Part shown: positions 3,578 through 31,386 of the stretch, piece by piece
Layout: the number at the start of each line of letters is the position of its first letter
Position numbering within the stretch: position 1 is the first letter of the stretch
Source of the DNA: Pseudacidovorax intermedius
GTDB taxonomy: Bacteria > Pseudomonadota > Gammaproteobacteria > Burkholderiales > Burkholderiaceae_C
Direction of reading: 5' to 3'
DNA: 40,225 nucleotides
Assembly: GCF_001476815.1 (NCBI RefSeq)
Contig: NZ_LDSL01000094.1
Location: 1 to 40,225, forward strand
Program-made: the position numbers and the translations under genes
Notes under the pieces: generated by a model
Told to the model about the DNA's origin: nothing
What the model saw: the letters and a program-made list of their open reading frames with translations, nothing else
The model's database searches: none

Positions 3578-4125
3578 AGGTCACGACCACCAAGCTGGAC
3601 GGCGTGCTGATCCTGGAGCCGAAGGTCTTCGGCGACGAGCGCGGCTTCTTCATGGAAAGCTTCAACCAGCGCGTCTTCGACGAGGCGGTGGGCGGGCACA
3701 TCGAGTTCGTGCAGGACAACCATTCGCGCTCGAGCAAGGGCGTGCTGCGCGGACTGCACTACCAGCTGCAGCAGCCCCAGGGCAAGCTGGTGCGGGTGAC
3801 GCGCGGCGCGGTGTTCGACGTGGCGGTGGACATCCGCAAAAGCTCACCGACCTTCGGACAGTGGGTGGGCGTGGAGCTCAGCGAGAGCAACCACCGGCAG
3901 CTGTGGATCCCGGCCGGCTTCGCGCACGGCTTCGTGGTGACCAGTGATAGCGCGGACTTTCTGTACAAGGCCAGCGACTACTACGCGCCGGCGCATGAGC
4001 GCAGCATCATGTGGAACGATCCGGATATCGGGATCGCGTGGCCGGATTTTGGTGGGGAGCCGAAGGTGTCGGCGAAGGATGCCGAAGCAGCAAACTTGGC
4101 AGCGGCCGACCTCTTTGCTAAGTAG
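3574..4125 (+). CDS. rfbC: dTDP-4-dehydrorhamnose 3,5-epimerase RfbC (RmlC)
   Basis: 183 residues, normal for RmlC. A cupin that epimerises C3 and C5 of dTDP-4-keto-6-deoxy-glucose to the L-sugar. Visible signatures are [21 protein letters not shown] with the catalytic His, [18 protein letters not shown], the IPAGFAHGF turn, and [15 protein letters not shown]. The ATG overlaps the rfbA stop (ATGA). Codon use loses its GC-rich character over the last 100 bases, marking the approach to the AT-rich polysaccharide block. No rfbD (4-keto reductase) follows or precedes it, which is unusual for this gene set. Confidence 0.97.
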
Positions 4126-4378
4126 GGCTTCGGCTGCGACGACCGACCAGGAGTGCAACGTTGTGGGCTACAAGCCTCGACGCCTTGCGCCTAACTAACC
4201 GCGAATTGCCAAGCAATAAAGAGCCGGCTTAACTGGCCACTGGAGTCGTTTTCGAATTCATGTCAAGAACGTCCAGGGACACCTAATGCCCAGCAATTCG
4301 AATTAAGACCCTATATGAGCTCCCAATGATTTATATCTTTCGACGCTATTTTCCTCAGCAAACAACTTCCTGCTTGGA
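4126..4378. other. AT-rich spacer between convergent rfbC and the polymerase gene
   Basis: About 250 bases separating the ends of two convergent transcription units. No gene and no clear hairpin-plus-T-run terminator is visible. The palindrome TTCGAATT occurs twice (near 4250 and 4297), with no known meaning. Base composition changes from native-like to AT-rich here, so it is the left edge of the variable block. Confidence 0.5.
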
Positions 4379-5620
4379 CTAATGAAGACTAATCCGAACC
4401 AAGCCAAATTGTTTCTTCCCGAAAATCACAAATCCTGCCGCAAGGCCAAAACAAATCCAAATATTGTAAATATTAAAATAATTTAACGATAAAAACGCCG
4501 GAATTATGGTGGCCACGATGAAGACATCCGAACCAGCTAAACAAATTACATTTTTTGAAAATATAAAACGACAAACAGGCCAGATGATAAAAAGCGCAAG
4601 GGGAATACCAAACCACGCAAACAACGATAAAAGCAGCGAGTGAATATTTTTATTTTCTTCGAAAATGGTTGACATCCCTTCGATATGAGCATTTAAGTCA
4701 TCCGACTGAATGCCCCACCCTAACAGCGGTCTCAACTCCACAGCATTAATACCGCTCCAAATCGAGTTCAATCTTGCGAGACTTGAAGCGTCAAAAGCAA
4801 GGTCGCCCAAACGGCTACCCAATTGTCCCAGGTGCGGAGCGACCAAAAACGCAACCGTACCCATCAAAGCGACTCCCGCTAGCAGACGAATCGACTTACC
4901 TGAATGTTTTACTTTGAACAAAGAATAAACAACCAGCGGTCCAACAAATGCTAACACCGTTATCGACTGGGTTGCAGCGAGTCCCAAAGCGATCAGCAGA
5001 GCTCTGGTGCTCCTCCTCGTAAGCATTAAATAAATCAGTGATGGCAGCAACAAAAGCGCCAACACAGATGGCTCAGAGGAAAATCCGAAAGCACGCCCGT
5101 AAGCCGTGAAATCCACTAACTGTGAAGCATCCAAATCTCCAAACCCACGATTATTACGAAACCCAAGCAAAAGCCCCGAAGAGCTTCCAAAAATCTGCCA
5201 ACCTATAAATTGAACACAAGCGAAAAGTGACACAACTGTACTTGCAGAAACATAGCCCCTTATAAATTCGTTAACTAGATGAGGCCGAGTCGCAAGATTC
5301 AACCCGGCAACTACTGCGATTAAACTAAAATGGAAAGCTACAAAGTTTTTTATTAAAAGATCATTATTTCTGTAAAAAATGTTATGAATAATAAAAAGAA
5401 CACACAAAAGTAACCAAACAGAGCAAAACCATTTACTTAGCTTTAATTTTCCACGGGCGAAAAGTAGCCCGCAAAACGCAATTGAGAAAAGGTTAGAAAA
5501 TTGTATTCCGGTGCTGCTTCCCAAATGAAATAATGCAACACTGGGAAATAAACATGAAAATCCCAGGAACCACACTAAGTGAGACATCTCACCGCGCTCA
5601 GAAGAGACTTTTTCATTCAC
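4379..5620 (-). CDS. wzy: O-antigen polymerase-like membrane protein (Wzy type)
   Basis: 413 residues with about ten hydrophobic segments and a large central loop containing SSLARLNSIWSGINAVELRPLLGWGIQSD. That pattern is found in the O-antigen polymerase/ligase (Wzy_C) superfamily, where the loop lies in the periplasm. Wzy joins lipid-linked repeat units. A ligase (WaaL) is the main alternative, but position as the last gene of an operon with a Wzx flippase favours Wzy. Members diverge so much that only topology and context support the call. The frame opens at GTG 5620; an ATG at 5587 (MSHLVWFLGF) is an alternative start. AT-rich, consistent with transfer. Confidence 0.75.
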   Translation of the reverse strand: MNEKVSSERGEMSHLVWFLGFSCLFPSVALFHLGSSTGIQFSNLFSIAFCGLLFARGKLKLSKWFCSVWLLLCVLFIIHNIFYRNNDLLIKNFVAFHFSLIAVVAGLNLATRPHLVNEFIRGYVSASTVVSLFACVQFIGWQIFGSSSGLLLGFRNNRGFGDLDASQLVDFTAYGRAFGFSSEPSVLALLLLPSLIYLMLTRRSTRALLIALGLAATQSITVLAFVGPLVVYSLFKVKHSGKSIRLLAGVALMGTVAFLVAPHLGQLGSRLGDLAFDASSLARLNSIWSGINAVELRPLLGWGIQSDDLNAHIEGMSTIFEENKNIHSLLLSLFAWFGIPLALFIIWPVCRFIFSKNVICLAGSDVFIVATIIPAFLSLNYFNIYNIWICFGLAAGFVIFGKKQFGLVRISLH

Positions 5621-5701
5621 AGATAGCGATCCAACACAGTTTACTTGTCTAACTCTATTTCAATAAATTAAAACTATGCGCGCACAAAATTCTATATCGA
5701 A

Positions 5702-6640
5702 CTAAATCCAGCGAAAAATTGAGGCACCCACTAATATCAACCGGTCTCCAATTTTTCTCCTGCCCTGTCTCGCAACTAGCATCGCCAGTTGCACCGACTC
5801 ACGTAGCGACCGTTCCATTCTATCTCTAAGAAGTTCGTATGCAATCGAAAAGGACGATGATCGCTCTAATGCGACAGCGCTATAAACAGCCGCGGCTGCC
5901 AGGCACTGGCGTGAATACCATCCGCTACGTAACAAGGATAACCTTTTCGATATTCCCTTCATCCCAACTCTTGAACCTATATCATTAGTCGCATGTTGCC
6001 TATAAAACATCGTCACACGCGAGTCAAAAAACCAACGGCCACCCCAAGCTCTCACTAAGACATAGACGAGCCAATCATGAAAATGCATATCGTCACACAA
6101 AGAACGATTTCCCTCGACTAATTTTTGAATCTTGATGAATGCCTGTCTAGTGAGCACAAACGTACACCCCTGCCCAGCTCCTTCGAAGATAAAATCCAAT
6201 TCTTTTAGGCTAGAACTTTGAAAGAATCCTCGGCCCACCTTTTTATTGCCATCCCATGGCAGAACGGACGCCGAATAACCGTCATAACTCGACAGATTCA
6301 AACACTCAACTGCATTAGCCAACTTGTTTTCAAACCAAACATCGTCCTGATCCGAAAACGCCACATAGTCCACGTTCGAACTATCAAAATCCAATATGAG
6401 CTGCCGAAAATTTCCGCCAGCAGACCCAGATGATTTAGATGCCACCTCCAGTTCAACTCTTGGATTGGACATGAACTGGGCTTTAATGCATGCAACAGTA
6501 CTATCGCTTGAGGCGTCGTCCCTAATTTTCAGTAAAGTCTCAACGCCCTTTTGGCCTAAAATACTTTGGACTTGCTCACCGATCCAGGCTTCCCCGTTAT
6601 AGGCCGCAAGCAATACCCCAACCTTTGCCATTTTAAGCAT
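5702..6640 (-). CDS. Family 2 glycosyltransferase
   Basis: 312 residues. GT-A fold: KVGVLLAAYNGEAWIGEQVQSIL at the start, LKIRDDASSDSTVACI (nucleotide-binding DD), then FSDQDDVWFENKL, the metal-binding region typical of rhamnosyl- and related GT2 enzymes. The C-terminal third is basic and hydrophobic, as in membrane-associated GT2. It should add one sugar of the repeat unit; donor and linkage cannot be read from sequence. ATG 6640 overlaps the previous gene by eight bases; ATG 6631 would avoid overlap, but the AAGGA site fits 6640 better. An 81-base AT-rich gap separates it from the polymerase gene downstream. Confidence 0.9.
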   Translation of the reverse strand: MLKMAKVGVLLAAYNGEAWIGEQVQSILGQKGVETLLKIRDDASSDSTVACIKAQFMSNPRVELEVASKSSGSAGGNFRQLILDFDSSNVDYVAFSDQDDVWFENKLANAVECLNLSSYDGYSASVLPWDGNKKVGRGFFQSSSLKELDFIFEGAGQGCTFVLTRQAFIKIQKLVEGNRSLCDDMHFHDWLVYVLVRAWGGRWFFDSRVTMFYRQHATNDIGSRVGMKGISKRLSLLRSGWYSRQCLAAAAVYSAVALERSSSFSIAYELLRDRMERSLRESVQLAMLVARQGRRKIGDRLILVGASIFRWI

Positions 6641-7367
6641 TAGTACTGCTTCCTTTACGTACCATAGCTACTAGAAGCGCTCTGATCATCCATACTCGCG
6701 ACAGCAATTTGAAAGCGAGAGAATTAGATGATCGCCCTCCCGTATGCGAAAAGTTATTCTGATGCCTTCGAAATCGGAATAGCGACCTTTCGCTAACGTT
6801 TACGGAAAAGAATGCCTCAGCGACAAGTGCCAAATACCAGTCATGCCATATTACGTTTTTTGGTATGGGCAACGCAATATCAAGAATTTCACGTCTGAAG
6901 GCCATGCAACAGCCCACATAACTGTTCTTGACCAAATTTCGGAAAAAACCTTTTCCAAATCTGACATACTCGAAAACAGTAACACCGAAGGGGACCAAAG
7001 AACCGTCAACAACTTCGCCGTTCATCATGGTTAGGGTCGCAGTCTTTAAAGCGCGACATCCCTCATCAATTCGCCCCGGCAACCATATATCGTCTTGATC
7101 GCTAAGAAACACATACCGATTTGACGCCTGCCGAATCAACCGTTCGAAATTCGCTACTACCCCCCCTGCACTCACCAACGACACGATTTTCACTTGGGGC
7201 ACGAATTCGCGTATTATGGCATGTGTGTCATCAGTAGACCCATCATCAGCTATGAGCAGTTCATCGCCAGGTTGCATTTGCTCGATAATGCTGCTAATTT
7301 GTTCGCGAACGAACATTGCCCCATTATAGGTAGCGAGGCACACCGAAACAGGAGGACGTTCTTCCAT
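6633..7367 (-). CDS. Family 2 glycosyltransferase
   Basis: 244 residues. Motifs VSVCLATYNGAMFVREQISSI, ELLIADDGSTDDTHAII and FLSDQDDIWLPGRI mark a GT2 enzyme of the same subtype as the next gene downstream, and the two may be ancient duplicates. NVIWHDWYLALVAEAF matches the HDW motif seen in several rhamnosyl/fucosyl GT2 proteins. The frame opens with TTG at 7370, but ATG 7367 is preferred. AT-rich. It probably transfers one residue of the repeat unit at the cytoplasmic face. Confidence 0.9.
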   Translation of the reverse strand: MEERPPVSVCLATYNGAMFVREQISSIIEQMQPGDELLIADDGSTDDTHAIIREFVPQVKIVSLVSAGGVVANFERLIRQASNRYVFLSDQDDIWLPGRIDEGCRALKTATLTMMNGEVVDGSLVPFGVTVFEYVRFGKGFFRNLVKNSYVGCCMAFRREILDIALPIPKNVIWHDWYLALVAEAFFSVNVSERSLFRFRRHQNNFSHTGGRSSNSLAFKLLSRVWMIRALLVAMVRKGSSTNA

Positions 7368-7405
7368 CAATGCGTCTGATAAAAATAATTCACAATGGTG
7401 CCATT

Positions 7406-8167
7406 TTATGTCAGCGAATTCTTGCCAAGGACGTTTGCGAGCCGACTAAGAAGAGCCCATTTAAAAATTCGAGCGCTTGCCAACGCAACCTGCACGACCA
7501 CGTTTGAGCCTTCAGAAATCTGATAAAGCAGGGTTTCAACTATCGAACGCAATTGATGTTTGCTAGACATACCTCCCAGCGCAAACTCGCCAAAAATGCG
7601 ATCCGAATACTTAACCTTCAGCTTACCCTTCAAAATCTTCTTTAAGAATAGGGCGTCTGCGACTAATCTATAGTTAATATCATATGCCCCAAATAAAGCG
7701 TGGGCTTTCATATTGATCACGGTGCCTACGCTGTGGTGGGAGACTGCCCTCCCCAAAACAAAGCGATGCAACCATCTTGGGCCAGCAAACTTCACCTTGT
7801 TCAACGGCATCAATCGAACACCTCCGAGGACTAACATTGCATCGTCCGCGCTAAGACACCCTAGTATGCTCTCAAGTAGATCAGGCTCGGGTCGATCATC
7901 CGCGCCGAATACCATGTAGTAAGGTGTCCGAATCATCGCAAGTGCCTTATTCAATCCGTGATAAAAGCCCTCGTCGCGCTCAGATATGAAATAATCGAAT
8001 AACTCTGAGCTGGCAGAGAGCTTTTCAAACGTTCCGTCGGTAGATCCGGCATCTATAATGATCCAGTCGTACTGAGTTCGATCCAGTAATTGAAATGATT
8101 TCAGATAACTGTCCACTTCATTTGAACAGTTGTACGTCATCGTAACGATTGAAAGCTTCTTTATCAT
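7406..8167 (-). CDS. Family 2 glycosyltransferase (WcaE/WcaA-like)
   Basis: 253 residues. The N-terminus KLSIVTMTYNCSNEVDSYLKS, then DWIIIDAGSTDGTFE, ISERDEGFYHGLNKAL and YYMVFGADD form the GT2 subgroup that includes colanic-acid enzymes. DEGFYHGLNKA is the most diagnostic string. RLVADALFLKKIL lies where the catalytic-base region is expected. The gene lies 17 bases after gmd in the transcript, so it may use GDP-L-fucose. That is an inference from position only. Confidence 0.9.
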   Translation of the reverse strand: MIKKLSIVTMTYNCSNEVDSYLKSFQLLDRTQYDWIIIDAGSTDGTFEKLSASSELFDYFISERDEGFYHGLNKALAMIRTPYYMVFGADDRPEPDLLESILGCLSADDAMLVLGGVRLMPLNKVKFAGPRWLHRFVLGRAVSHHSVGTVINMKAHALFGAYDINYRLVADALFLKKILKGKLKVKYSDRIFGEFALGGMSSKHQLRSIVETLLYQISEGSNVVVQVALASARIFKWALLSRLANVLGKNSLT

Positions 8168-8184
8168 GCCAGCTCAGCACCTAG

Positions 8185-9309
8185 TTATTCCCGGTGATCG
8201 AATGCTTGATAACCAGCACTCCGCACCAAATCATCCCGCTTTGCATGCAAGTAATCGCTTTCGATCATCTCTGTGACAAGTTCATCGAATGTAATTTTCG
8301 GGCTCCAACCAAGCTTGCTTTTTGCTTTGGAAGGATCGCCGAGTAGAGTTTCCACTTCGGTGGGGCGGTAGTAACGAGGATCGACCCTAACAACCACGTC
8401 ACCAACCTTGCACTTTGAACGAGCGCCCTCAACCTTAGTAACCGTACCGACCTCGTCTAAACCGGAGCCTGAGAACTCGATATGCATCCCCAGTATTTGG
8501 GCACTCTTTTCTACGAACTGGCGAACGCTATACTGGACGCCTGTCGCGATGACGAAGTCTTCGGGTACCTCTTGCTGAAGCATCAGCCACTGCATTTCGA
8601 CATAGTCCTTGGCGTGTCCCCAGTCGCGCAGTGCATCCATATTGCCCAAATAAAGACAGTTCTCTAATCCCAATGCAATTCTCGAGATAGCTCGAGTAAT
8701 TTTTCTCGTAACAAAGGTTTCACCCCGAATAGGGCTCTCGTGATTGAAAAGAATGCCGTTGCATGCATAAATTCCGTAAGCTTCTCTATAGTTGACCGTA
8801 ATCCAGTAGCCGTATAGCTTAGCAACCGCATAAGGGCTTCTTGGGTAAAAAGGAGTGCTCTCCTTCTGTGGTATCTCCTGCACTAGCCCATACAACTCAC
8901 TAGTACTCGCTTGATAAAACTTAGTTCTTTTTTCCAGCCCCAAAATTCGGATAGCCTCCAGAATTCGCAGAGTTCCGATTCCGTCTGCGTTAGCCGTGTA
9001 TTCAGGCGTTGCGAAAGACACCGCGACATGGCTCATGGCGGCCAAATTGTAGATTTCGTCGGGCTGAACTTCCTGAATGATCCGAATTAGGTTTGTGCTG
9101 TCGGTGAGATCTCCATGATGAAGCACAAATTTTCGATTTTCTACATGAGGATCTTGGTACAGATGATCAATACGATCGGTGTTGAAAAGGCTAGAGCGGC
9201 GTTTTAGCCCATGGACAATGTATCCCTTGTTGAGCAAAAGCTCGGCAAGATAGGCTCCGTCCTGGCCAGTAATGCCAGTAATCAACGCCACTTTATTAGT
9301 CTTAGTCAT
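8185..9309 (-). CDS. gmd: GDP-mannose 4,6-dehydratase
   Basis: 374 residues, close to E. coli Gmd. Converts GDP-D-mannose to GDP-4-keto-6-deoxy-D-mannose with bound NADP. Motifs: [57 protein letters not shown] (YxxxK), and the GDP-binding stretch [22 protein letters not shown] 9318 opens the frame, but ATG 9309 has the excellent site TAGGTGA five bases upstream and gives the family N-terminus. It sits directly after fcl, the partner enzyme. No GDP-mannose synthesis genes (manB/manC) are in the window. Confidence 0.97.
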
Positions 9310-9324
9310 ATAATTCACCTAAAG

Positions 9325-10260
9325 TTAGGATTGCTTGTAAAAAGGAGTGCTTACGTAGGTTTTCATAATGCCTTCTTCTAGTGAGATACGAGGCTTCCAG
9401 CCCATGCTTTCAAGCTTTGAAGCATCCAGCAACTTTCTCGGGGTGCCGTCGGGCTTGCTGGGATCAAATACGATTTGCCCTTCGAAGCCAATCACCTCTG
9501 CCACAATCGTTGCGAGTTCACGAATGGTGATATCGCTTCCGCTCCCGATATTGATCAAAGGCTCGCTTACGTCACTTTCCATTAAAAAAACGCAAGCATT
9601 TGCAAGATCATCTATATACATAAACTCACGCATTGGAGTTCCAGTCCCCCAAACCTCGTAAGTTGGGTGATTGTTTATCTTTGCATCATGCGCTTTTTTG
9701 ATCAACGCAGGCAGCACATGGTTATTGGCGAGATCATAATGATCGTTAGGACCATAAAGATTTATCGGCATCACGGAAAAATAATTTCTGCCATATTGCC
9801 GCCTGTAACTATCACACATTTTCACACCTGCGATCTTTGCGATAGCATAAGGTTCATTCGTGGGCTCAAGCGCACCTGTGAGCAAGTATTCTTCTTTAAT
9901 GGGCTGTGGGCAGTATTTTGGATAAATGCAATTCGAACCTAGAAAGAGCAGATTCTGAACACCTGCTTTGTGAGCCTCATTTATGACGTTAACCTGCAGA
10001 GATAGATTCTCAAAAATAAAGTCTGCGGGAAAATCATTATTTGCCTGAATGCCCCCTACCTTAGCTGCGGCTAGCACTACGTAGTGCGGTTTTTCTTCCT
10101 GAAAAAAATTGGCTACTTGCTCTTGATTCAGCAAATCTAGCTCTTGACGAGTTCTTAATATAATATTAGTGTAACCCTTGCGCTGAAGTTCGCGGACGAT
10201 GGCAGAACCAGCAAGTCCGCGATGACCAGCAACGAAAATCTTTGAATTTGTGTCGATCAT
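9325..10260 (-). CDS. fcl: GDP-L-fucose synthase
   Basis: 311 residues, normal for Fcl/WcaG. An NADPH-dependent 3,5-epimerase and 4-reductase that turns GDP-4-keto-6-deoxymannose into GDP-L-fucose. Motifs: [19 protein letters not shown] (Rossmann), [38 protein letters not shown] (catalytic YxxxK), and [10 protein letters not shown]. The open frame reaches 10401, but ATG 10260 gives the family N-terminus; the extension would overlap the preceding glycosyltransferase. With gmd it completes the GDP-L-fucose branch. Confidence 0.97.
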
Positions 10261-10270
10261 AAATCGTATT

Positions 10271-11440
10271 TTAGGGAATGAGGGTGGATACACTACGAAC
10301 AATACGCTCGAACTCGGAGCCGAAATGCGCCCATCTCCTATCGTAGGAATCGCGAGCCGCGGCGAAATGCTGAGGTTCCGATTCGGGGTCGTACTGCTCA
10401 TACGCTTGTAGCAGCGCCTCCGCTGCTGCGTGCGCGTTATTGGGGTCGAAGTATATAGCCCTAGTTGGTGCCTGCTCGCGATGAACAGGAATATCTGACA
10501 GCACCAACAATTTGCCTAGGGCCTTCGCTTCCTCCACCGATGTGCTCCATCCTTCAAAAAGAGACGGATTTAGCACCGCTATTGAATAACCCATAAGCCC
10601 GATAACGTCCTCATAGGGTATCACCCCCAAGAGCTTGATGTGATCAAAAAGCCCCTGCTCTCGAATCCTATGCTGAACTTTTTCTACGTGATCAGGAAAC
10701 CGATAGTCGACAAGCTTGCCAGTGCAGACAACCTGAATATTATGGCCGGCATTCTTTACAAGTGCCAACGCGTCTACGATGGTAAGATGATTCTTATGAA
10801 TCCATAACTGGTTTGGTAGATGAATCCATTTCTCAGCCAAGCCATACTTCCCCCGGAGTTCGTGGTGAGAGGGCGCTGACGCTGACGCATGAGGCTTGCC
10901 CGATACAAAATTCAGGACGAATTTTTCTTTCTCAGCTGCCTTCGGATAATACTTGACGCAGTCTTCCAACGCATTCTGGCTGCTAAATAACAGCGCAGTG
11001 CAACGCTCCACGACGTTTGAAAACTGATCTTGCCGATGCAGCCATTCGTCTCTCTGAAAAAAATCTGGGTAGTAGATATGCTGGAAGTCCGGAATCCATG
11101 CAATTGATCTGATGCCATCGCAATACCAGTGATCCCCGAAATGAAATACAAGGTCTATCTCGTTCTTCGCGAGAAGTTTTTTCAGCAAAAAATCTTGGCC
11201 GACCCGCAGCCGGTTTGTGATCTTTCTCACGTACCAGCTCGGCGTCTTGCGGTCGAGAAACTCTGTTCTGATTACTTGGGCGTGCTCCTCCAGTTCAGTT
11301 GAACTGAACCTCTTTCCGCAGACAAGATATATATCAACCAGTTGAGAGCCGTGCACCGCCGCAAATAGATTTTTGAAATAGTTGACACCCCCTGTCCAAC
11401 TCATGTGCTCGACAAGAAATGCCACTTTAATTTTTTTCAT
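10271..11440 (-). CDS. Glycosyltransferase, GT4-like (GT-B fold)
   Basis: 389 residues. The C-terminal half carries [21 protein letters not shown], the GKLVDY donor-site loop, and [36 protein letters not shown], the E-x7-E motif of retaining GT4 enzymes. The N-terminal half starts [21 protein letters not shown], the acceptor domain's glycine loop. It should act at the cytoplasmic face in repeat-unit assembly. ATG 11440 is preferred to TTG 11446. It overlaps the preceding SDR gene by 14 bases and ends 10 bases before fcl. Donor sugar unknown. Confidence 0.9.
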
Positions 11441-12323
11441 TGACAAACCAATCGACGTAATTTTTTATACCTGAATGAAGATCGGTCTGGGCGCTCCAAC
11501 CGATACTGCGCGCAGCCGAGATATCTGCAATGTAGCCCGGCGGATCACCTGCTTTTGACACACCGGTGAATCCCACCTCCGTCACCGTAGCGACCTGCAT
11601 ACTGACGAGCGCCAAAACCTCCTTAATCGTGACGCCTTGGCCTGAACCAGCGTTAATGATTCGGGGCACATTCGGTCCCGCCGTCAGGATTTGCGCAATG
11701 AGTCTAATTAAATCGTCAATAAAGAGCCAGTCACGAATTTCATTGCCCGTTCCAAAAAAATTGTTGATGCCGATGCTTAGCTTAGAACAGGCGTCCCAGA
11801 GTAGTTGCTTCCTAAGGCCCGGCCCATAGATAGAGAATGGTCTGACAATGACATGGTCAACGAGCGCGCGTTCAACCAGCCGTTCTGCTTCAAGCTTGTG
11901 TTTTCCATACGGAGACACCGGGCATTTGGGTGCCGACTCATGGATCGGAAGCACCATCGAGTTGCCGTATACCGCAGCGCTGGACAAATAGATAAATCGA
12001 ATATTTGGCCATCGTCGTGCGCAGAGATTTCCCAACTCATCCGTGTATTGAACTGTGTCGCTCCAGTCCTTTGCTTCGTCTAGCAAAGAGCTTGCAACAG
12101 ATGAGCCTCCAGCGCAATGTACGACAAAGTCCAATCGTTGGCGTCCTAGCGCGCTCTCAATGGCCTTCACATCACTGCCGATCACTTCGATGGCGCCATG
12201 GTCGGCGCAAATGCCACTCCTCGAGCTGGCAAGAACCCGAAAGCCAAGCTGAGCCAGGCCCTTAGCAGTACTCCCGCCAATAAACCCGCCCGCGCCCGTC
12301 ACCAATACCGAACCGGCACTCAT
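11427..12323 (-). CDS. NAD-dependent epimerase/dehydratase (extended SDR)
   Basis: 298 residues. Rossmann SVLVTGAGGFIGGSTAKGL, then YLSSAAVYGNS and SPYGKHKLEAERL (YxxxK), VRPFSIYGPG, and a C-terminal substrate domain. This is the GalE/4-keto-reductase type of extended SDR, acting on nucleotide sugars. Because rfbC is present but no rfbD is, this protein is one candidate for the missing 4-keto reductase on the dTDP-L-sugar, for example giving dTDP-6-deoxy-L-talose. Equally, it could be a C4 epimerase for another sugar. The ATG at 12323 overlaps the preceding stop (ATGA), fixing the start; the frame upstream to 12356 is not used. Confidence 0.85.
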   Translation of the reverse strand: MSAGSVLVTGAGGFIGGSTAKGLAQLGFRVLASSRSGICADHGAIEVIGSDVKAIESALGRQRLDFVVHCAGGSSVASSLLDEAKDWSDTVQYTDELGNLCARRWPNIRFIYLSSAAVYGNSMVLPIHESAPKCPVSPYGKHKLEAERLVERALVDHVIVRPFSIYGPGLRKQLLWDACSKLSIGINNFFGTGNEIRDWLFIDDLIRLIAQILTAGPNVPRIINAGSGQGVTIKEVLALVSMQVATVTEVGFTGVSKAGDPPGYIADISAARSIGWSAQTDLHSGIKNYVDWFVNEKN

Positions 12324-13066
12324 AGATTGCCCAATCTTCTCGACGCTGCAATCCACGGCATTTCCTTCATTGCATATCGGTCATTCAACTGTTCAAGATA
12401 AGAATTCTCCGAGAGAAGCGATCTCTCATCATCCTCGGTAAAAAGATCGACCAGCTTCCAGCGACATTCGGCGAACGAATAGCGCTTGATGATCCTTGCG
12501 GGAGCACCAACAACAAGACTAAATGGCGGCACGTCAGAGATCACGCTCGACCCAGCCCCCACTACCGCGCCGTGTCCGACGACAACTGAGCCGATGACCA
12601 TTGCAGACGCGCCAATGAACACGCCGTGCCCCACGCGAATATGGTCTGAGGAGGTTGGAGCCGAGTGCAACGCTGGTTCTAGCGGATTACTATAGTCATG
12701 GGCACTGCCTAGAAATTTGCAATCAACAGACGTCAGTACGTGGCTTCCAATACGGATGCTGGCGCCGCATGTAAAAAAGTTTCTTTTACCGATGAAGCTG
12801 TTAGAAGCAATGACCAGACTTGGCTCCCGCTTGTCGCTTCTATGATTGACGTTTAGCCACACGCCCTCACTAATGCAACAGTTTTCACCAATTTCAACTT
12901 GGCGCGCGCCCAGGATGTGGACCGACGAGTCGACATAGGATGACTTAGGCACCACTAGTCTGTTCCCGAAGATAAGTGTCTGAATTCGGCATTTGGCCCA
13001 CACGCTAAGATGTGGCCACATCCATTTTGCAAAACGCCTAAGCAATGGCTTCACCTCTTCCGACAC
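12320..13066 (-). CDS. Hexapeptide-repeat acyltransferase (probable O-acetyltransferase)
   Basis: 248 residues. Left-handed beta-helix repeats run through the middle (VHILGARQVEIGENCCISEG, then IRIGSHVLTS, HIRVGHGVFIGASAMVIGSV and VVGHGAVVGAGSSV), ending in VVGAPARIIKRY, the signature of the LbetaH acetyltransferase family. GSAHDYSNPLEP carries the catalytic-type His. These enzymes move acetyl from acetyl-CoA to a sugar hydroxyl. The start is uncertain: GTG 13066 lies inside the end of wzx (29-base overlap), and ATG 13021 is an alternative. The long charged C-terminal tail after the helix is atypical. Confidence 0.85.
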   Translation of the reverse strand: MSEEVKPLLRRFAKWMWPHLSVWAKCRIQTLIFGNRLVVPKSSYVDSSVHILGARQVEIGENCCISEGVWLNVNHRSDKREPSLVIASNSFIGKRNFFTCGASIRIGSHVLTSVDCKFLGSAHDYSNPLEPALHSAPTSSDHIRVGHGVFIGASAMVIGSVVVGHGAVVGAGSSVISDVPPFSLVVGAPARIIKRYSFAECRWKLVDLFTEDDERSLLSENSYLEQLNDRYAMKEMPWIAASRRLGNL

Positions 13067-14318
13067 TGCTTATCCGAACCACGGCTCTGAAGTTGCAGAC
13101 CAGCATAGGTATTAACGTTAATAATCCACTCGCAAGGGGCACGACCCAAAATGACGAGAATTTTGAAAACAACAGGTTAGCGATCGGAATGACAAGGACG
13201 ATCGAAAAAATCGACATAACTGCCTGAATTAATATGTCTTCAAATGCGTTTAGGAAGACTGCTCCAACATAGGAAAAAATCTGGGCAATTGCTTGAAACG
13301 CAAACGGAAGCGCATCGGTCCAGTGCAATCCGACTGCATTACGAGTCCAAACGCTGACGATATTAGACGCCAGCATAGCGACGCATACTACACCGAGCGA
13401 AAACAGCAATGCGACTTGATGCATCCGGATAAATACTCGTCGAAGCTCACGTGAATCACCGGTGCTTCTCACCTTTGAGATCTCCGTCCACATAATGGCA
13501 ATCCATATTCCATAAAAACTCATCCCGAGCTGAAAAATCCTGTTGCAAATATCGAAGCGCGCGGCTTCCCGTGCGCCTAGTGCGTTGTACGTGAGGATGT
13601 TGCCTAATCCATAAAGAAAGACAACGGATATCTGAAGCAGCAAGAATTTCCCGCCAACCGCGAATCGGCTAAAATTGAATTCTAAGCCGCTTCTCAACGA
13701 CAGCGTCGATTTCACATCAAAACCTATTTTTTTTAACGAATAAAAAAAGCCAAATAACGCAAATGCAAAGAATGAGATGCCCCAAATCGCACTTAACTTA
13801 AGCAGACTTGCATTGCCATCGACAATGGCTAATACCGCCACAACGCAAATGAAGAACCAAACGTTTGCAGATTGGAAAAATGACTGAGAAACAAACGCCC
13901 CCAAGCCGGCCAAAATGCTCGACGAAAGCAGAAATGGCACGGACGCAGCGACAGGCGCGTATAAAAAGAGAATCGCCGACGCATTAGGCGACCCTCGCGC
14001 AACGACCGTAATGGACAGCGCGCCAACCGCTATTGCTGACACTCCCGCCAGCACCCAAAACGCAGAGCGCAGCTCCACTTGAAGCGCGCGAGGATTCTTC
14101 GACAGAGATCTGCCGGCAATGCTATTACGAAGACTGCTGCCGATCCCCAGATCCAATAGAGCTGCATACATCAAGATAGAGCTCAGCGTTACCCATGTGC
14201 CATAAAGCTCTGCGCCTAAATACTGCAGGAGTAGGGGCACGCTTACCAAAGAGAACGCGATCGAAACCAGCCTCAACGCGCTTGCACCGGCGAAGTTTCT
14301 TAGCTTTAAGAGTCTCAT
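13038..14318 (-). CDS. wzx: Polysaccharide flippase (Wzx-like)
   Basis: 426 residues with about 12 evenly spaced hydrophobic helices, e.g. LVSIAFSLVSVPLLLQYLG near the N-terminus followed by GAELYGTWVTLSSILMYAAL. This opening, in which a conserved G-x-x-x-Y-G-x-W follows helix 1, is typical of the polysaccharide transporter/MATE-like family. Wzx moves undecaprenyl-linked repeat units across the inner membrane. Its presence with a Wzy-like gene supports Wzx/Wzy-dependent assembly and argues against an ABC exporter, none of which is seen. AT-rich. Confidence 0.88.
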   Translation of the reverse strand: MRLLKLRNFAGASALRLVSIAFSLVSVPLLLQYLGAELYGTWVTLSSILMYAALLDLGIGSSLRNSIAGRSLSKNPRALQVELRSAFWVLAGVSAIAVGALSITVVARGSPNASAILFLYAPVAASVPFLLSSSILAGLGAFVSQSFFQSANVWFFICVVAVLAIVDGNASLLKLSAIWGISFFAFALFGFFYSLKKIGFDVKSTLSLRSGLEFNFSRFAVGGKFLLLQISVVFLYGLGNILTYNALGAREAARFDICNRIFQLGMSFYGIWIAIMWTEISKVRSTGDSRELRRVFIRMHQVALLFSLGVVCVAMLASNIVSVWTRNAVGLHWTDALPFAFQAIAQIFSYVGAVFLNAFEDILIQAVMSIFSIVLVIPIANLLFSKFSSFWVVPLASGLLTLIPMLVCNFRAVVRISSVGRGEAIA

Positions 14319-14336
14319 ATATGTGGTGAATACGGT

Positions 14337-15269
14337 CTAGCAGTGTCTAGTCGCCAATATCTTCAGTCTAGAAACGAATGAACGCCGTGCGATGCTTATT
14401 ACCGTTCGAAGCGAGGCTCCCGCCGGAATTGGATATTTCTTCCGGAACTGAATGAGTTCTTCGTATCGCTTGCCCGCATATAGAAGTCCAATTGCCGAGA
14501 GAAGATTTCTTGCGGCAATTTCTGCGCGCGCTTTTCTCCAATCCGCTTGCAGATCCAAGCTGCCATTATCCAACTCCACATCAATTTTTTTTAGCCATTT
14601 TTCTATTTCGGCCATCCACTGATCTGAGGCGATCTTTGCATGAGTCAAACTGCCTCTCCAAACGCGATATTGACCAACAACAGTCGTTGAAAATACAACC
14701 TTGCCGTTAAGAGCACAGCGTTGGACTAAATCGCTATCTGCAGCCGTGAGTTCGAATGAGGAGTCGAGTCCGCCCAGCTTCTCGAAGGTTGTTCTTTTGA
14801 ACGCAATGGCCGGCATTCGCGCATCAACGCCTTTAATAAATTTCCGAAACGCCGGCTCGCCCACCAAAATTTCATCCCTTTCAGGGCGATAAGTGTGGAA
14901 GACGCTGCCAGATTCATCTATTAGGTCACATCCACAAACGATCATGTCCGCTTCTGGGTTTTGAACTAGGATATCCCGTATATGCTCCAATCCACCGGCA
15001 AGATATTTATCATCATCGGATGGAATAATGACATGACTTTGATCGGGAGTTACAAGGCGCGCTGCCCTGTTCCAGTTCGAAAACATTGGAATAACATCAG
15101 CACATCCGGAAAATTCAAGATTAACGTTCCTGTTAATTTTTCCTTTCTCCGTCAATCCACCATTGTCGCTGACCCAGACGGGCGCGGCTTCTGGAATTGA
15201 ATTTAACAAATCATTTAGAAGTTCCGACCTGTTGTAGGTAGGAATCGCTATTCCAAGTCCAATATTCAT
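14337..15269 (-). CDS. Family 2 glycosyltransferase
   Basis: 310 residues. The N-terminus GIAIPTYNRSELLNDLLNSI and PVWVSDNGG fit GT2, and SHVIIPSDDDKYLAGGLEHI provides the DxD-like metal site (SDDD). ELTAADSDLVQRCA resembles the catalytic-base region. The C-terminal part is basic and helical. It lies two bases before the ascarylose-type reductase in the map (immediately downstream in the transcript), so it is a reasonable candidate to use the CDP-3,6-dideoxyhexose as donor. That is inferred from position alone. Confidence 0.88.
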   Translation of the reverse strand: MNIGLGIAIPTYNRSELLNDLLNSIPEAAPVWVSDNGGLTEKGKINRNVNLEFSGCADVIPMFSNWNRAARLVTPDQSHVIIPSDDDKYLAGGLEHIRDILVQNPEADMIVCGCDLIDESGSVFHTYRPERDEILVGEPAFRKFIKGVDARMPAIAFKRTTFEKLGGLDSSFELTAADSDLVQRCALNGKVVFSTTVVGQYRVWRGSLTHAKIASDQWMAEIEKWLKKIDVELDNGSLDLQADWRKARAEIAARNLLSAIGLLYAGKRYEELIQFRKKYPIPAGASLRTVISIARRSFVSRLKILATRHC

Positions 15270-15270
15270 G

Positions 15271-16140
15271 CTATTTTTTTCTTTCTTTTATCTCTTCAAG
15301 ACCTTGGCGTAAGCTGATTCGCGCTTTCCAATTCGGGACCGAGTCATCAACTGGATAAAGTTTCATGACTTCCCTATTGCGATATGGTCGCCCCCCGAAA
15401 TTAACCTTCAATTTCTTTCCAAAAGTAGACTCCACGTGAGCTGCAATTTCTTTTAATGAATACTCTTTGCCGTATGCATGAAATACTTGAAAATTTTGAG
15501 CATGTTCGCTGCAGAGATAATTAATCGCGCAAGTATATGCCGACACAACGTCATCTACATGGGCCATTGCGATAAGCTGGTCGCCAGGTGAGACATCCAA
15601 TTCAACTCCGCTGGTCACTGCGTCAACGAGCAGATTCAAGATTTTTCTTCGTTTGTCCCCTTCGCCGTACGAATCGCCAAGTTTTAGCACCAATGTGCGG
15701 ATGCCTTTGGCTTCGGCATAATACTGACAAATTTTTTCAAAAGCCGTTTTAGTAGCAGCATAGAGGTTGACCGGCGCATCTCGCCGGCCCTCGTAATCTT
15801 GCCAACCCGAGCCAGTCGTGATAAAGCAATCAATCAAGCACTCGCTCATCGAGTCGAGTAGTTGAGTACCAAAAGTTATGTTTGCGTCGATGAGATTTTC
15901 GATGTCGGAGCGTTTGTGCTCTACTAGGAAGAGCGAAGCGACGTGGATTACCAGCTTTGGCTGTGCTCGCTTCAAGGCCGAGCTAATCGAGTCGATAGTT
16001 CCATCATAATAGAATGTCGAAGAATCAGCTGACCGCTCCGGCGTTCTGCTTAGTCCGTATATCTCGTGGCCGGACGCTCTCAGTGCGCTCGCGAGTGCGT
16101 TTCCGGTAAAACCGGTGATTCCAGTAATGAGGATCTTCAT
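15271..16140 (-). CDS. SDR reductase, probable CDP-3,6-dideoxyhexulose reductase (AscF/RfbJ-like)
   Basis: 289 residues. Rossmann MKILITGITGFTGNALASAL, then ITTGSGWQDYEGRRD and YAATKTAFEKICQYY (catalytic YxxxK), a shape shared with CDP-abequose and CDP-paratose synthases and with the ascarylose reductase. The gene lies one base after a cupin epimerase and in the same transcript as ddhABCD. It is therefore expected to reduce the C4 ketone and finish a CDP-3,6-dideoxyhexose. The cupin partner points to the L-series (ascarylose type). ATG 16140 gives the canonical N-terminus; the longer frame to 16176 runs into the upstream gene. Stereochemistry cannot be proved from sequence. Confidence 0.8.
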   Translation of the reverse strand: MKILITGITGFTGNALASALRASGHEIYGLSRTPERSADSSTFYYDGTIDSISSALKRAQPKLVIHVASLFLVEHKRSDIENLIDANITFGTQLLDSMSECLIDCFITTGSGWQDYEGRRDAPVNLYAATKTAFEKICQYYAEAKGIRTLVLKLGDSYGEGDKRRKILNLLVDAVTSGVELDVSPGDQLIAMAHVDDVVSAYTCAINYLCSEHAQNFQVFHAYGKEYSLKEIAAHVESTFGKKLKVNFGGRPYRNREVMKLYPVDDSVPNWKARISLRQGLEEIKERKK

Positions 16141-28077: not shown

Positions 28078-29133
28078 ATGACGGATTTCTCCACGCCCTT
28101 TTCCGCCACCCTGGCGCAGCAACCCGCGGGGGTGCTGGACGCGCTGGCCGAAGAAGCCGGCGGCGCGCTGGCGCTGAGGCATCTGGTGGCGGCCGGCATC
28201 GATCAACTGCCGCTGCCGGGCCACGGCAGCACCTTGCTGCGCTGGCAGTGGCTGGCGGCGGTGGCGGCGGTGGATCTCAACCTGGCCAAGCTCTACGAAG
28301 GCCACACGGACGCCCTGGCGATCCTCGACGAGCTCCACGGTCCCGCGCCCGCCGAAGGCAGCCTGTGGGGCACCTGGTGCGCGGAGCCGCCGTCCGCGCG
28401 GCTGCGCTTCGAGCGCACCGGCGGCGATGCCTTGCGCCTGCATGGCCCCAAAGCTTGGTGCTCGGGCGCGACGCACGTCACACATGCCGTCGTGAGCGGC
28501 TGGTACGACGATGGCCAGCCGGGCCTGGCGGTGGTGACGCTTCATGCGCCGGGCGTCACCATCAGCAACCGCCACTGGCATGCCGTCGGCATGGGCCCCT
28601 CGGACACCGGCCAGGTCGATTTCGACGCCACCCCGGCGCTGGCGCTCGGCCAGCCGGGCGATTACGTGGCACGCGCCGGCTTCTGGCACGGCGGTGCGGG
28701 CATCGCGGCCTGCTGGTGGGGCGGCGCCTCAGCCATCGCGCGGGCCATGCGCCGACGTTTCGCGGCAGGCAAGCCCGACGCCCACCAGCTCGCGCACCTG
28801 GGCGCGGCCGAATCGCTGCTGTGCGCCTGCGCCTCGCTGCTGCGCGAATGCGCGTCCTGGATCGACACCCATCCCACCGCCAATGCCCAGGCCACCGCCC
28901 TGCGCGCGCGCCTGGTGGTCGAGCATGCGGTGGGCGAGATCGTGCAGCACGCAGGGCGTGCCCTCGGCGCCGGCCCGCTGTGCGCCGATGCCCATTTCGC
29001 GCGGCTGATGGCGGACCTGCCGGTCTTCGTGCGGCAGAGCCACGCCGAGCGCGACCAGGCCGAGCTCGGCCGCCTGGCGCTGGCCCACGGCACGACGGCG
29101 CCGGCCGCCTTCGGCGGATGGTGCGCGCTGTGA
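28078..29133 (+). CDS. Acyl-CoA dehydrogenase-like flavoprotein (first gene of a four-gene cassette)
   Basis: 351 residues, shorter than the usual 380 or so. The fold is recognisable: an N-terminal helical region, the mid beta domain with LHGPKAWCSGATHVTHAVVSGW and GVTISNRHWHAVGMGPSDTGQVDFD, then FWHGGAGIAACWWGGASAIARAM and a C-terminal helical domain. The usual catalytic Glu region is not obvious, so it may oxidise or hydroxylate an unusual substrate, or act on an acyl chain bound otherwise. ATG 28078 fits the domain start; the open frame upstream to 27931 is Pro/Arg/Ala-rich and unlikely. Its stop lies inside the next gene. Confidence 0.85.
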   Translation: MTDFSTPFSATLAQQPAGVLDALAEEAGGALALRHLVAAGIDQLPLPGHGSTLLRWQWLAAVAAVDLNLAKLYEGHTDALAILDELHGPAPAEGSLWGTWCAEPPSARLRFERTGGDALRLHGPKAWCSGATHVTHAVVSGWYDDGQPGLAVVTLHAPGVTISNRHWHAVGMGPSDTGQVDFDATPALALGQPGDYVARAGFWHGGAGIAACWWGGASAIARAMRRRFAAGKPDAHQLAHLGAAESLLCACASLLRECASWIDTHPTANAQATALRARLVVEHAVGEIVQHAGRALGAGPLCADAHFARLMADLPVFVRQSHAERDQAELGRLALAHGTTAPAAFGGWCAL

Positions 29134-29936
29134 CGGCGGCGGCGCTGCGCAGCCCCTCTTCCGCGGACGACGCGGCATCGCGCCACATCGACGCCAGCGA
29201 CGGCACGCCGGAATGGCGCTGGGCGCAATGCCGCAGGCTTCAGGCCTTGCCCGAGATGGCGGCAGGGGCCCTGGTGCCCGAAGGTGGCCGCGTCGTCGTC
29301 GTGGCGCCGCATCCGGACGACGAGATCCTGGCGGCCGGGGGCCTGCTGTCGCTGGCCGCGGCTCTGGGTCGGCCAGCCATGCTGGTGGCGGTGACGGACG
29401 GCACCGCCAGTCATCCCGGCTCCACGCGGTGGCCCGCCGCACGCTTGCAAGCCGAGCGGCCGCAGGAAAGCCTCGCTGCGCTGACCGCGCTCGGCGTGCA
29501 GCCGCAGGCACTCATCCGCCTCGGCCTGCCCGACGGCGGCCTGCGCGAGGCCGAGGACGACCTGGCGCGCCAGCTTCAGCCGCTGCTGTACCCGAGCGAT
29601 GTGGTGCTGACCACCTGGCGGCTGGATGGCCATCCCGACCATGAAGCCACTGGCCGGGCCACCGTGCAGGCCGCGGCCGCGGCAGGCGCCCGCTGGCTGG
29701 AGGCCGCCGTCTGGGCCTGGCACTGGGCGCAGCCCGGCGACGAACGCCTGCCCTGGAATCGCGCCTTTCGCCTGCCGTTGCCTGCGGCGGTCGTCCAGCG
29801 CAAGCAGGCCGCCATGGCCGCTTTCGCCAGCCAGATTCAGCCCGACCCCAGCACCGGTGCTGCGCCGGTGCTGCGCCAGAGCACCCTGGCCCGCGCCGGG
29901 CGGCCCTTCGAGGTCTTCTTCGATGCTGCGCCGTGA
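29118..29936 (+). CDS. PIG-L family (LmbE-like) N-deacetylase
   Basis: 272 residues. VVVAPHPDDEILAAGG (HPDDE at about residues 65-69) gives the zinc-binding His-Asp pair, and RLDGHPDHEATGRA gives the third ligand, as in GlcNAc-PI and mycothiol-precursor deacetylases. The family removes N-acetyl from an amino sugar. ATG 29118 overlaps the previous gene by 16 bases; GTG 29130, overlapping the upstream TGA, is an alternative. The start of the next gene may also overlap its stop (GTGA). Cytoplasmic. The substrate is unknown; in this cassette a glycosylated amino sugar is the natural guess. Confidence 0.9.
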   Translation: MVRAVTAAALRSPSSADDAASRHIDASDGTPEWRWAQCRRLQALPEMAAGALVPEGGRVVVVAPHPDDEILAAGGLLSLAAALGRPAMLVAVTDGTASHPGSTRWPAARLQAERPQESLAALTALGVQPQALIRLGLPDGGLREAEDDLARQLQPLLYPSDVVLTTWRLDGHPDHEATGRATVQAAAAAGARWLEAAVWAWHWAQPGDERLPWNRAFRLPLPAAVVQRKQAAMAAFASQIQPDPSTGAAPVLRQSTLARAGRPFEVFFDAAP

Positions 29937-29980
29937 CACGCCGCGCCATGCCCGCCCAACCTTGCCAAAGCCCCTCGCCC

Positions 29981-30622
29981 ATGAACACGTCGACCGCCGC
30001 GACCGCCGATGAGCCCCCCGAACCTGGCCAGCAGCGCGCCTACTTCGACGCCATCTATGCCGAGCAGGACGACCCCTACGGCGTGCGCACCCGCTGGTAC
30101 GAGCGCCGCAAGCGCGAGCTGCTGCTCGCCGCCCTGCCCCGTCCCCGCTTCCGCCGCGCCTATGAACCTGGCTGCGGCGCGGCGGCGCTGAGCCTGTCGT
30201 TGGCCGAGCGCTGCGACGAGCTCTGGTGCAGCGACTTCCATCCCCGCGCGGTCGCGACCGCCACGTTGCTCCTGGCGCACCTGCCCCACGTGCGCGTCGA
30301 ACAGCGCAGCCTGCCGCAAGAGTGGCCGCACGAGGGCCGGTTCGACCTCGTGGTACTCAGCGAGGTCAGCTACTTCCTCACGCCCGACGACGTGCACGCC
30401 ATGGCCGAACGCTGCAACGCCTCGCTCACCGCCGACGGCGTGCTGGTCGCCTGCGACTGGCGGCCCGACTTCGCGGGCCGCCGCTGCCCCACGGACGAGG
30501 TCCACCGCCTGCTCGATGGCCTCGGCCTGCACCGGCTGCTGCGGCACGAGGAGGACGACTTCCTGCTGCAGGTCTGGCAGCGTTCGCCGCGCTCGGTGGC
30601 GCAGGCGGAGGGCATCCGGTGA
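29981..30622 (+). CDS. SAM-dependent methyltransferase, NodS-like
   Basis: 213 residues from ATG 29981. AYFDAIYAEQDDPYGVRTRWYERRKRELLLAAL and RRAYEPGCGAAALSLSLAERCDELWCSDF (motif I), with FDLVVLSEVSYFLTPDDV and GVLVACDWRPD, resemble the NodS group of N-methyltransferases. NodS methylates the free amine of a deacetylated chitooligosaccharide. A GTG at 29933, overlapping the previous stop, would add 16 weak residues and is the alternative start. Its TGA overlaps the GTG of the next gene. Similarity is to the wider NodS-like family, not proof of the same substrate. Confidence 0.85.
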   Translation: MNTSTAATADEPPEPGQQRAYFDAIYAEQDDPYGVRTRWYERRKRELLLAALPRPRFRRAYEPGCGAAALSLSLAERCDELWCSDFHPRAVATATLLLAHLPHVRVEQRSLPQEWPHEGRFDLVVLSEVSYFLTPDDVHAMAERCNASLTADGVLVACDWRPDFAGRRCPTDEVHRLLDGLGLHRLLRHEEDDFLLQVWQRSPRSVAQAEGIR

Positions 30623-31386
30623 TCGGCGTCGCCATTCCGGCCCACGACGAGCAGGCCCACATTGCCGCCGCGCTGGCGGCCGTGCAGGCGGCCTCGCAGC
30701 ATCCGGCACTGGCCGGCGAGGCCGTGCGCGTGGTGGTGGTGCTGGACGACTGCACCGACGCCACGGCCCGCCTGGCGCGCGAAGCTGGTGCCTGGACGCT
30801 GCCCATCGCCGCCCGCAACGTGGGCAGTGCGCGCGCCGCCGGCGCCGACTGGCTGCTCGCGGCCGGCGCGCGCTGGCTGGCCTTCACCGATGCCGACACG
30901 CGCGTGGACGAACGCTGGCTGGCCGAGCAGCTGGCCCTGGCGGCCGACGCGGTCTGCGGCAGCGTGGCGGTGGACGACTGGTCGGTGCATGGCGTGCTGG
31001 CCGATGCGCTCCAGGCGCACTTCGCCAGCCACTACACCGATGCGGACGGGCACCGGCACATCCACGGCGCCAACCTGGGCGTGAGCGCAGCGGCCTATCG
31101 CCAGGCGGGCGGCTTCGCGCCCCTGGCGTGCGGGGAGGACGTGGCGCTGGTGGACGCGCTGGAGCGCGGCGGCGCCCGCATCGCCTGGAGCGCCCGGCCC
31201 CGCGTGTGGACCAGCGCCCGCACGCAGGCCCGTGCGCGCGGCGGCTTCGGCGACACGCTGCTCGCCATGCGCGGCGGCCTGTGCGCCGAGACCGTCGGGG
31301 CCGAGCCCATTTTGGTGGGCATCGCCCCAGAGGGCGCGACGGCCGCCGGCGCGATGGGTCAGTACGCCACGGTCCGTTCGGGCTGA
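30619..31386 (+). CDS. Family 2 glycosyltransferase (last gene of the cassette)
   Basis: 255 residues from GTG 30619, which overlaps the methyltransferase stop (GTGA). GT2 signature: IGVAIPAHDEQAHIAAALAAV, VVVVLDDCTDATARLA, WLAFTDADTRVDERWL (DxD) and HGANLGVSAAAYRQAGGF, then GEDVALVDALE as the catalytic-base region. No membrane segments, so a soluble or peripheral enzyme. The last codons (VRSG and the stop) lie inside an interspersed repeat at 31374-31399, so the original C-terminus may have been replaced. Donor and acceptor unknown. Confidence 0.9.
   Translation: MIGVAIPAHDEQAHIAAALAAVQAASQHPALAGEAVRVVVVLDDCTDATARLAREAGAWTLPIAARNVGSARAAGADWLLAAGARWLAFTDADTRVDERWLAEQLALAADAVCGSVAVDDWSVHGVLADALQAHFASHYTDADGHRHIHGANLGVSAAAYRQAGGFAPLACGEDVALVDALERGGARIAWSARPRVWTSARTQARARGGFGDTLLAMRGGLCAETVGAEPILVGIAPEGATAAGAMGQYATVRSG

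Follow-up and report, generated by a model that had tools for sequence, protein, structure and literature searches.

A conserved four-gene cassette of Pseudacidovorax intermedius predicted to N-deacetylate and N-methylate an amino sugar, with stress genes beside part of its relatives

In the 40,225-nucleotide stretch of Pseudacidovorax intermedius DNA analyzed here (NZ_LDSL01000094.1, positions 1 to 40,225; hereafter the window), four adjacent genes encode a flavoprotein with the acyl-CoA dehydrogenase (ACAD) fold, a PIG-L-type deacetylase, a NodS-like methyltransferase (MT) and a small GT2-family glycosyltransferase (GT). These genes form an operon and a genuine conserved unit, which also occurs on plasmids. 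Deacetylation by PIG-L followed by N-methylation of an amino sugar is well supported as their predicted chemistry, and we lean towards a soluble, probably cytosolic pathway leading to a small amino-sugar conjugate for stress survival that would be N-methylated and perhaps also N-oxygenated. The cassette consists of the following genes:

28078..29133, + strand: ACAD-like gene; 351-amino-acid ACAD-fold flavoprotein with a WCSGA flavin motif and a glutamine, Gln320, apparently replacing the catalytic glutamate
29130..29936, + strand: PIG-L gene, GTG start; 268-amino-acid PIG-L/LmbE-type zinc N-deacetylase with intact PHPDDE and HPDH metal motifs
29981..30622, + strand: MT gene, ATG start at 29981; 213-amino-acid NodS-like S-adenosylmethionine-dependent methyltransferase
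30619..31386, + strand: GT2 gene, GTG start; 255-amino-acid small soluble glycosyltransferase with conserved DxD motif and ED pair

A check of the sequence confirmed that all four frames are open at these positions, and the dense packing claimed by the first-pass annotation of this DNA was borne out, with 4-nt overlaps (GTGA) at both ACAD/PIG-L and MT/GT2. Between PIG-L and MT there is a gap of 44 nt before the ATG at 29981; the MT might instead start upstream at the GTG at 29933, which would create a third GTGA overlap of 4 nt. Pfam domains were detected in PIG-L (E 1.3e-26), GT2 (E 1e-8) and MT (NodS, E 9.6e-8), and Acyl-CoA_dh_M matched the ACAD-like protein at E 7e-6, under its curated cut-off. 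The best NCBIfam models were SfnB (ACAD), BshB1 (PIG-L), NodS (MT) and TIGR04283 (GT2), all four scoring below cut-off. For a Pseudomonas and a Novosphingobium cassette, the top-ranking models were identical or nearly so, the latter with DszC and SfnB for the ACAD and MftF and EpsD for the GT, and no NCBIfam model matched the Kitasatospora ACAD at E 1e-5. As to a possible role in defence, the only PADLOC match was mad2 to the MT (E 2e-16), and nothing was returned for ACAD, PIG-L or GT2. The cassette PIG-L is the sole PIG-L gene detected in the strain's own genome. Since no transmembrane-like stretch was found in four sequences per cassette family, window proteins included, the chemistry is probably cytosolic.

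The linkage of these genes was followed through several genome samples. In a family set of 150 genomes and a class set of 274 genomes, which overlap slightly, a strong MT homologue (E < 1e-30) occurred in 15 genomes beyond that of the strain itself, and all 15 loci also carried ACAD and PIG-L homologues. MT matched more weakly at 34 loci, viewed with about 1.5 kb of flank each, and 33 of them did not show both partners; the remaining one, L036, showed ACAD and PIG-L profile matches despite its weak MT match (E 8.5e-9), and searches with the window MT protein alone therefore undercount the family. A less biased sample was obtained by running the ACAD profile over 398 sampled genomes of the phylum, Pseudomonadota as judged from named relatives (E <= 1e-30), which gave 33 matches, one of them in the own genome; the other 32 loci were read at 8.6-18 kb each. 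The MT stands in the same run as the ACAD in 32/32 of these sampled loci (31 after ACAD, one before), the order ACAD-PIGL-MT is found in 27, and a GT belongs to the run in 21, with five of these GTs lying upstream of ACAD. A pattern scan of a genome collection returned at least 591 relatives, and the best 80, picked by MT, all contained ACAD and MT, with PIG-L between them in 52/80 and a GT in 62/80 of these contig loci. Among ten plasmid loci, eight showed ACAD-PIGL-MT (seven of them with GT) and one had no PIG-L between ACAD and MT. PIG-L and MT are joined in a single open frame in L090 and L196 (2/163 loci, some of which overlap). Among viral contigs, 31 pattern matches included no relative.

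Some variation within these loci is worth recording. Some Pseudomonas loci have an extra PIG-L gene after GT2 or MT (11/80 contig loci; e.g. L111:11417-12178), and the Pandoraea vervacti GT2 (L140:14263-14923) matches in two overlapping frames and looks broken. L061, L066-L070 and L072, several of which are named Xenophilus, gave no GT2 match within the stretch examined, and several of them have genes for FMN-binding, NAD-synthase and PAS histidine-kinase proteins as common neighbours.

The first-pass annotation had proposed that recurrence in the same order across distant phyla would support a dedicated pathway, and the order ACAD/PIG-L/MT indeed recurs in Pseudomonadota, Actinomycetota, Deinococcota and Cyanobacteriota. 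All four genes occur in the same order in the actinomycetotal genera Kitasatospora and Embleya, while Deinococcus sp. NW-56, D. gobiensis and the cyanobacterium Nostoc UHCC 0926 combine ACAD-PIGL-MT, as overlapping frames in Nostoc, with a convergent GT2. D. radiodurans has PIG-L and MT separated by a helicase gene on the opposite strand. The ACAD-like proteins of D. radiodurans (L284:1178-3517) and D. gobiensis (L290:3702-6050) are extended at the N-terminus by about 400 amino acids; in D. radiodurans, this extension gave no Pfam match at E 1e-5 and resembles a glycosidase on visual inspection. In Gloeothece, the gene after ACAD encodes a methyltransferase not recognized by the MT profile. 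Rubrobacter shows the order CE4 deacetylase-ACAD-MT-Pyr_redox-GT2, with no PIG-L profile match within the 14 kb examined; the deacetylase directly before ACAD (L285:4957-5829) has NodB as its best NCBIfam model (E 9e-33; score 113 bits, cut-off 240), ahead of peptidoglycan deacetylase models.

Deacetylation and methylation are well grounded within the predicted chemistry. H61, D63, D64, E65, H168, D170 and H171 of the HPDDE and HxDH zinc motifs are invariant across 23 aligned PIG-L sequences. Among structures, the PIG-L profile is nearest to the uncharacterised TT1542, followed by diacetylchitobiose deacetylases, BshB and MshB, and the best NCBIfam matches of the cassette PIG-L are BshB1/BshB2. 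The MT profile is nearest to the unnamed structure 4isc and then to NodS (E 3.7e-23; next match 4e-9), so that NodS is the nearest named methyltransferase; the window MT itself reaches the NCBIfam NodS model at E 3.5e-13 with 49.7 bits against a cut-off of 300, and does not qualify as NodS proper. GT2 keeps the DxD and ED residues in the alignment, and its nearest named families are TIGR04283 and MftF. Given the homology to NodS, the two PIG-L/MT fusions and the NodB-like deacetylase of Rubrobacter, it can be assumed with good support that an amino sugar is first N-deacetylated and then N-methylated, in agreement with the first-pass annotation.

In the MT tree, five NodS sequences form a separate clade (100/100) outside the cassette MTs, grouping with the trifunctional enzymes and a further two methyltransferases, and the placement of this clade is weakly supported. 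Deep forks are weak throughout, 17/48 inner branches are open, and L036, included as an outsider row, turned out to be a cassette member. Descent of NodS from the cassette MT was examined with this tree, and given the weak deep forks we claim no ancestry. The trifunctional enzymes are proteins that NCBI names trifunctional glycosyltransferase/methyltransferase/polysaccharide deacetylase (L301:1931-5407; L300:2372-5452) and whose name implies GT, NodS-like MT and deacetylase functions within a single polypeptide. They differ from the cassette in having no ACAD, and their MT domain, the only domain examined, lies elsewhere in the tree. In Gloeothece, such a protein is encoded about 11 kb from the ACAD-methyltransferase pair on the same plasmid.

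Regarding the ACAD-like protein, a monooxygenase or N-oxygenase is probably a better description than a dehydrogenase. Against the PDB, the family profile matched best the DszC-type TdsC (E 1.6e-11), with MsuC and a cyclohexanecarboxyl-CoA dehydrogenase level in second place (E 1.4e-10). Behind these came DszC entries and, further down, several acyl-CoA dehydrogenases, with DnmZ at 3.6e-5 and a chain labelled nitrososynthase at 6.5e-4. In fold and in similarity to DszC/MsuC, the protein thus resembles class D flavin monooxygenases and nitrososynthases. In the profile alignments, its WCSGA motif resembles the CSG flavin-site motif of TdsC and MsuC; most ACADs of the own genome have ITN, ISN or ISG at this position, according to a motif scan that passed over some loci and also picked up several unrelated frames. 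At the column of the catalytic glutamate ([YF]EGT region), the alignment shows glutamine in 12/12 cassette proteins versus glutamate in 2/2 own-genome dehydrogenases, and the protein is therefore unlikely to be a usual dehydrogenase. The acyl handling suggested by the first-pass annotation accordingly found no support, "acyl" being the weak part of that label. The DszC/TdsC, MsuC and SfnB monooxygenases and the DnmZ-type nitrososynthases likewise have an ACAD fold without the dehydrogenase glutamate, but the cassette protein is shorter, scores far below the NCBIfam cut-offs and is encoded in a sugar-modifying operon. A possible flavin reductase partner was seen in two cases, as an FMN reductase gene adjoining ACAD in Gloeothece and as Pyr_redox two genes downstream of it in Rubrobacter; the usual gene set contains none.

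Stress-related genes lie beside the cassette in part of its relatives. The genes treZ-malQ-treY-glgX, in that order, precede it in 25/29 Pseudomonas contig loci, the other four lacking them. In Comamonas endophytica the cassette sits between otsA and otsB, in L198 and L202 it adjoins otsA, and in Sulfitobacter W002 a catalase gene comes directly after it; Ku and LigD are encoded near it on a Bradyrhizobium plasmid, as are catalase and GlgE on a Cupriavidus plasmid. At least one of 15 stress-linked queries matched in 15/32 sampled loci compared to 0/33 control regions (Fisher p 2.7e-6). Restriction to trehalose, alpha-glucan, catalase and LigD queries gave 13/32 versus 0/33, and addition of Mn-catalase, DUF892 and a sucrose-phosphate-synthase-like protein, all first seen in the 32 loci themselves, 21/32 versus 1/33.

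These counts have to be read together with how they were obtained. The 15 queries were kept after a first look from 30 that had been drawn from other cassette loci. Those dropped (matches in the 32 loci versus the 33 controls) were SDR (2 vs 5), transglutaminase (0 vs 1), isochorismatase (1 vs 1), three glycosyltransferases (5, 10 and 5 vs 0), a PAS histidine kinase (4 vs 0), two PIG-L queries (1 and 25 vs 0), two queries with 1 vs 0 and four with 0 vs 0. The loci are not all independent, as four of the 15 positives (L225, L226, L237, L238) come from one genus, and L192 and L193 count through a PA2169-type match alone. The control regions were placed by hand at round offsets, 31 of them in 25/32 sampled genomes and in the near relatives L221 and L222; L205 and L206 were left uncounted.

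Published expression data point in the same direction. Table 2 of PMC5660220 lists Acinetobacter baumannii ACICU_02432-02435 as a glycosyltransferase, a SAM-dependent methyltransferase, LmbE and an acyl-CoA dehydrogenase-related protein and marks them as one operon, i.e. four identical annotations in mirror order to the cassette. In that table, these genes are down 31- to 62-fold in two lipopolysaccharide-deficient, colistin-dependent mutants, in which otsA/otsB (trehalose-6-phosphate synthase/phosphatase) fall 12- to 50-fold and catalase 22- to 31-fold; they belong to 33 genes that fall more than 10-fold in both mutants, and the table section assigns the operon no function. This table raised our confidence in the stress-conjugate pathway from evenly balanced to slightly favourable. 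Cassette genes are indeed present in this genus: A. baumannii records contain all four, and the ACAD-like protein has matches in 19 Acinetobacter records. One A. baumannii record (L146) has a predicted aminoglycoside-resistance gene at a distance of about 4.5 kb from the four genes. For Pseudomonas, part of PMC8982409 gives P. syringae PSPTO3125-3130 as glgA to glgX, with no measurable trehalose after deletion, and the cassette would follow glgX in that strain; in the P. putida LS46 table rows of PMC4636370, treY-malQ-treZ-glgX are followed by a hypothetical protein and an outer membrane autotransporter, not by the cassette. As the first-pass annotation had supposed, we found no product described for the gene set in the open-licence PMC literature, where PMC5660220, in its table, was the one paper to list the operon; a subscription paper could describe the pathway.

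Taken as one pathway, the four enzymes would act in sequence. GT2 would transfer an N-acetylated sugar, probably from UDP-GlcNAc, onto a small acceptor; PIG-L would then remove the acetyl group, the NodS-like enzyme would N-methylate the freed amine, and the ACAD-fold flavoprotein would oxygenate the product, perhaps at nitrogen. For this scheme we infer donor, acceptor, step order, oxygenation, product and protective role.

Several observations weigh against such a pathway. The GT is missing from the run in 11/32 sampled loci, and five of the 32 have no PIG-L between ACAD and MT; three of these five carry a cassette-type PIG-L elsewhere (one about 12 kb off on the same contig), one has a weak PIG-L match about 1.5 kb from ACAD, and in the fifth (G724) the sole match is weak and lies on a different contig. 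The Methylobacterium FF17 plasmid locus consists of the ACAD alone, and D. proteolyticus ACAD and MT stand far apart on one record, so the linkage is not universal. For the flavoprotein, cyclohexanecarboxyl-CoA dehydrogenase ties with MsuC at 1.4e-10 in the profile search, and the window protein alone matches only 7xp7, a cyclohexanecarboxyl-CoA dehydrogenase (E 5e-6). Our rejection of an ordinary acyl-CoA dehydrogenase depends on a one-residue gap in the alignment and on two comparison proteins, the ungapped residue being serine, proline or histidine. Most single stress genes are non-significant individually, no stress gene was seen beside the window cassette, and the only OtsA match of the genome lies on another contig. 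The A. baumannii operon was equated with the cassette by annotation and mirror order, not by sequence, and its tabulated data concern co-expression in lipopolysaccharide-deficient mutants, not stress induction. The variable presence and position of the GT would also suit generic enzymes with separate jobs, co-located by chance or hitchhiking. This explanation is highly improbable, being already contradicted by the linkage counts, namely the ACAD/PIG-L/MT order in four phyla and the 32/32 association of ACAD and MT, alongside the overlaps and fusions.

Among readings that keep the cassette together, an osmoprotectant with trehalose or a maltooligosaccharide as its core is the most serious, though we consider it doubtful. 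Here, GT2 would add an amino sugar, PIG-L and MT would turn it into a charged N-methyl amine, and a minor oxidation would fall to the ACAD-like protein. The otsA/otsB and treZ-malQ-treY-glgX neighbours fit this idea, as does the co-expression of the like-annotated A. baumannii operon with otsA/otsB in the PMC5660220 table, but other loci have catalase, Ku/LigD or no such neighbours, and the neighbourhood may therefore mean a shared regulon, not a shared substrate. The cassette enzymes are unrelated to the alpha-glucan chemistry of the Pseudomonas treY/treZ operon, and the cassette occurs elsewhere without it.

A lipid- or acyl-modified Nod-like signal, with the ACAD a genuine acyl-CoA dehydrogenase, is unlikely. 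It would draw on the NodS-like MT, the NodB-like deacetylase of Rubrobacter, and the ACAD fold with its one solved match for the window protein; against it stand the replaced glutamate, the position of the five NodS outside the cassette MTs (weakly supported) and the absence of an annotated NodA from the annotated cassette regions, for which gene tables are incomplete. NodA also gave no Pfam match in the own genome, but none in control genomes either. The first-pass annotation had compared GT2 with NodC and the deacetylase with NodB, and neither equation survives: NodC is a membrane chitooligosaccharide synthase, whereas the window GT2 is small, lacks a transmembrane-like stretch and is nearest to TIGR04283/MftF, and the window deacetylase is PIG-L rather than CE4-type NodB. 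Judged from the proteins' sequences, the cassette would thus work like Nod-factor tailoring by NodB and NodS, sharing amino-sugar N-deacetylation and then N-methylation, without being a member of the Nod-factor pathway; it further differs by the extra flavoprotein and by a stress rather than symbiosis neighbourhood in relatives. A redox cofactor of the mycothiol/bacillithiol kind is less probable still. MshA/MshB and BshA/BshB make a small cytosolic glucosamine conjugate with a glycosyltransferase and a PIG-L deacetylase, and the BshB1/BshB2 matches of the cassette PIG-L and the catalase neighbours recall this. BshA and MshA, however, belong to the GT4 family whereas the cassette enzyme is a GT2, the MT and the ACAD have no counterpart there, and no cysteine-adding enzyme was noticed among recurrent annotated neighbours, although no search was aimed at one.

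Elsewhere in the window, positions 4000-16000 form a low-GC block (44-50%, compared to 58% at 16-18 kb and 66-74% elsewhere) with polysaccharide genes recognized by eye, namely nucleotide-sugar enzymes, several glycosyltransferases and a flippase-like and a polymerase-like protein.

Overall, a conserved pathway appears to be present without an assigned product in plant, soil, clinical and radiation-resistant bacteria, bringing the Nod-type logic of deacetylation and methylation into a non-symbiotic setting. In most of the Pseudomonas loci examined, it adjoins a trehalose/alpha-glucan operon, the P. syringae counterpart of which has been the subject of a deletion study. In its boldest form, which we offer only tentatively, the stress-conjugate pathway would yield a stress metabolite that has so far gone unrecognised, namely an amino-sugar conjugate both N-methylated and N-oxygenated, the latter as a hydroxylamine or nitrone-like group. 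Pseudomonadota, Actinomycetota, Cyanobacteriota and Deinococcota, D. radiodurans among them, would make it as a protectant against desiccation or oxidation alongside trehalose and catalase. If such a protective role is true, it would add a compound class to the means by which bacteria survive drying and oxidation.

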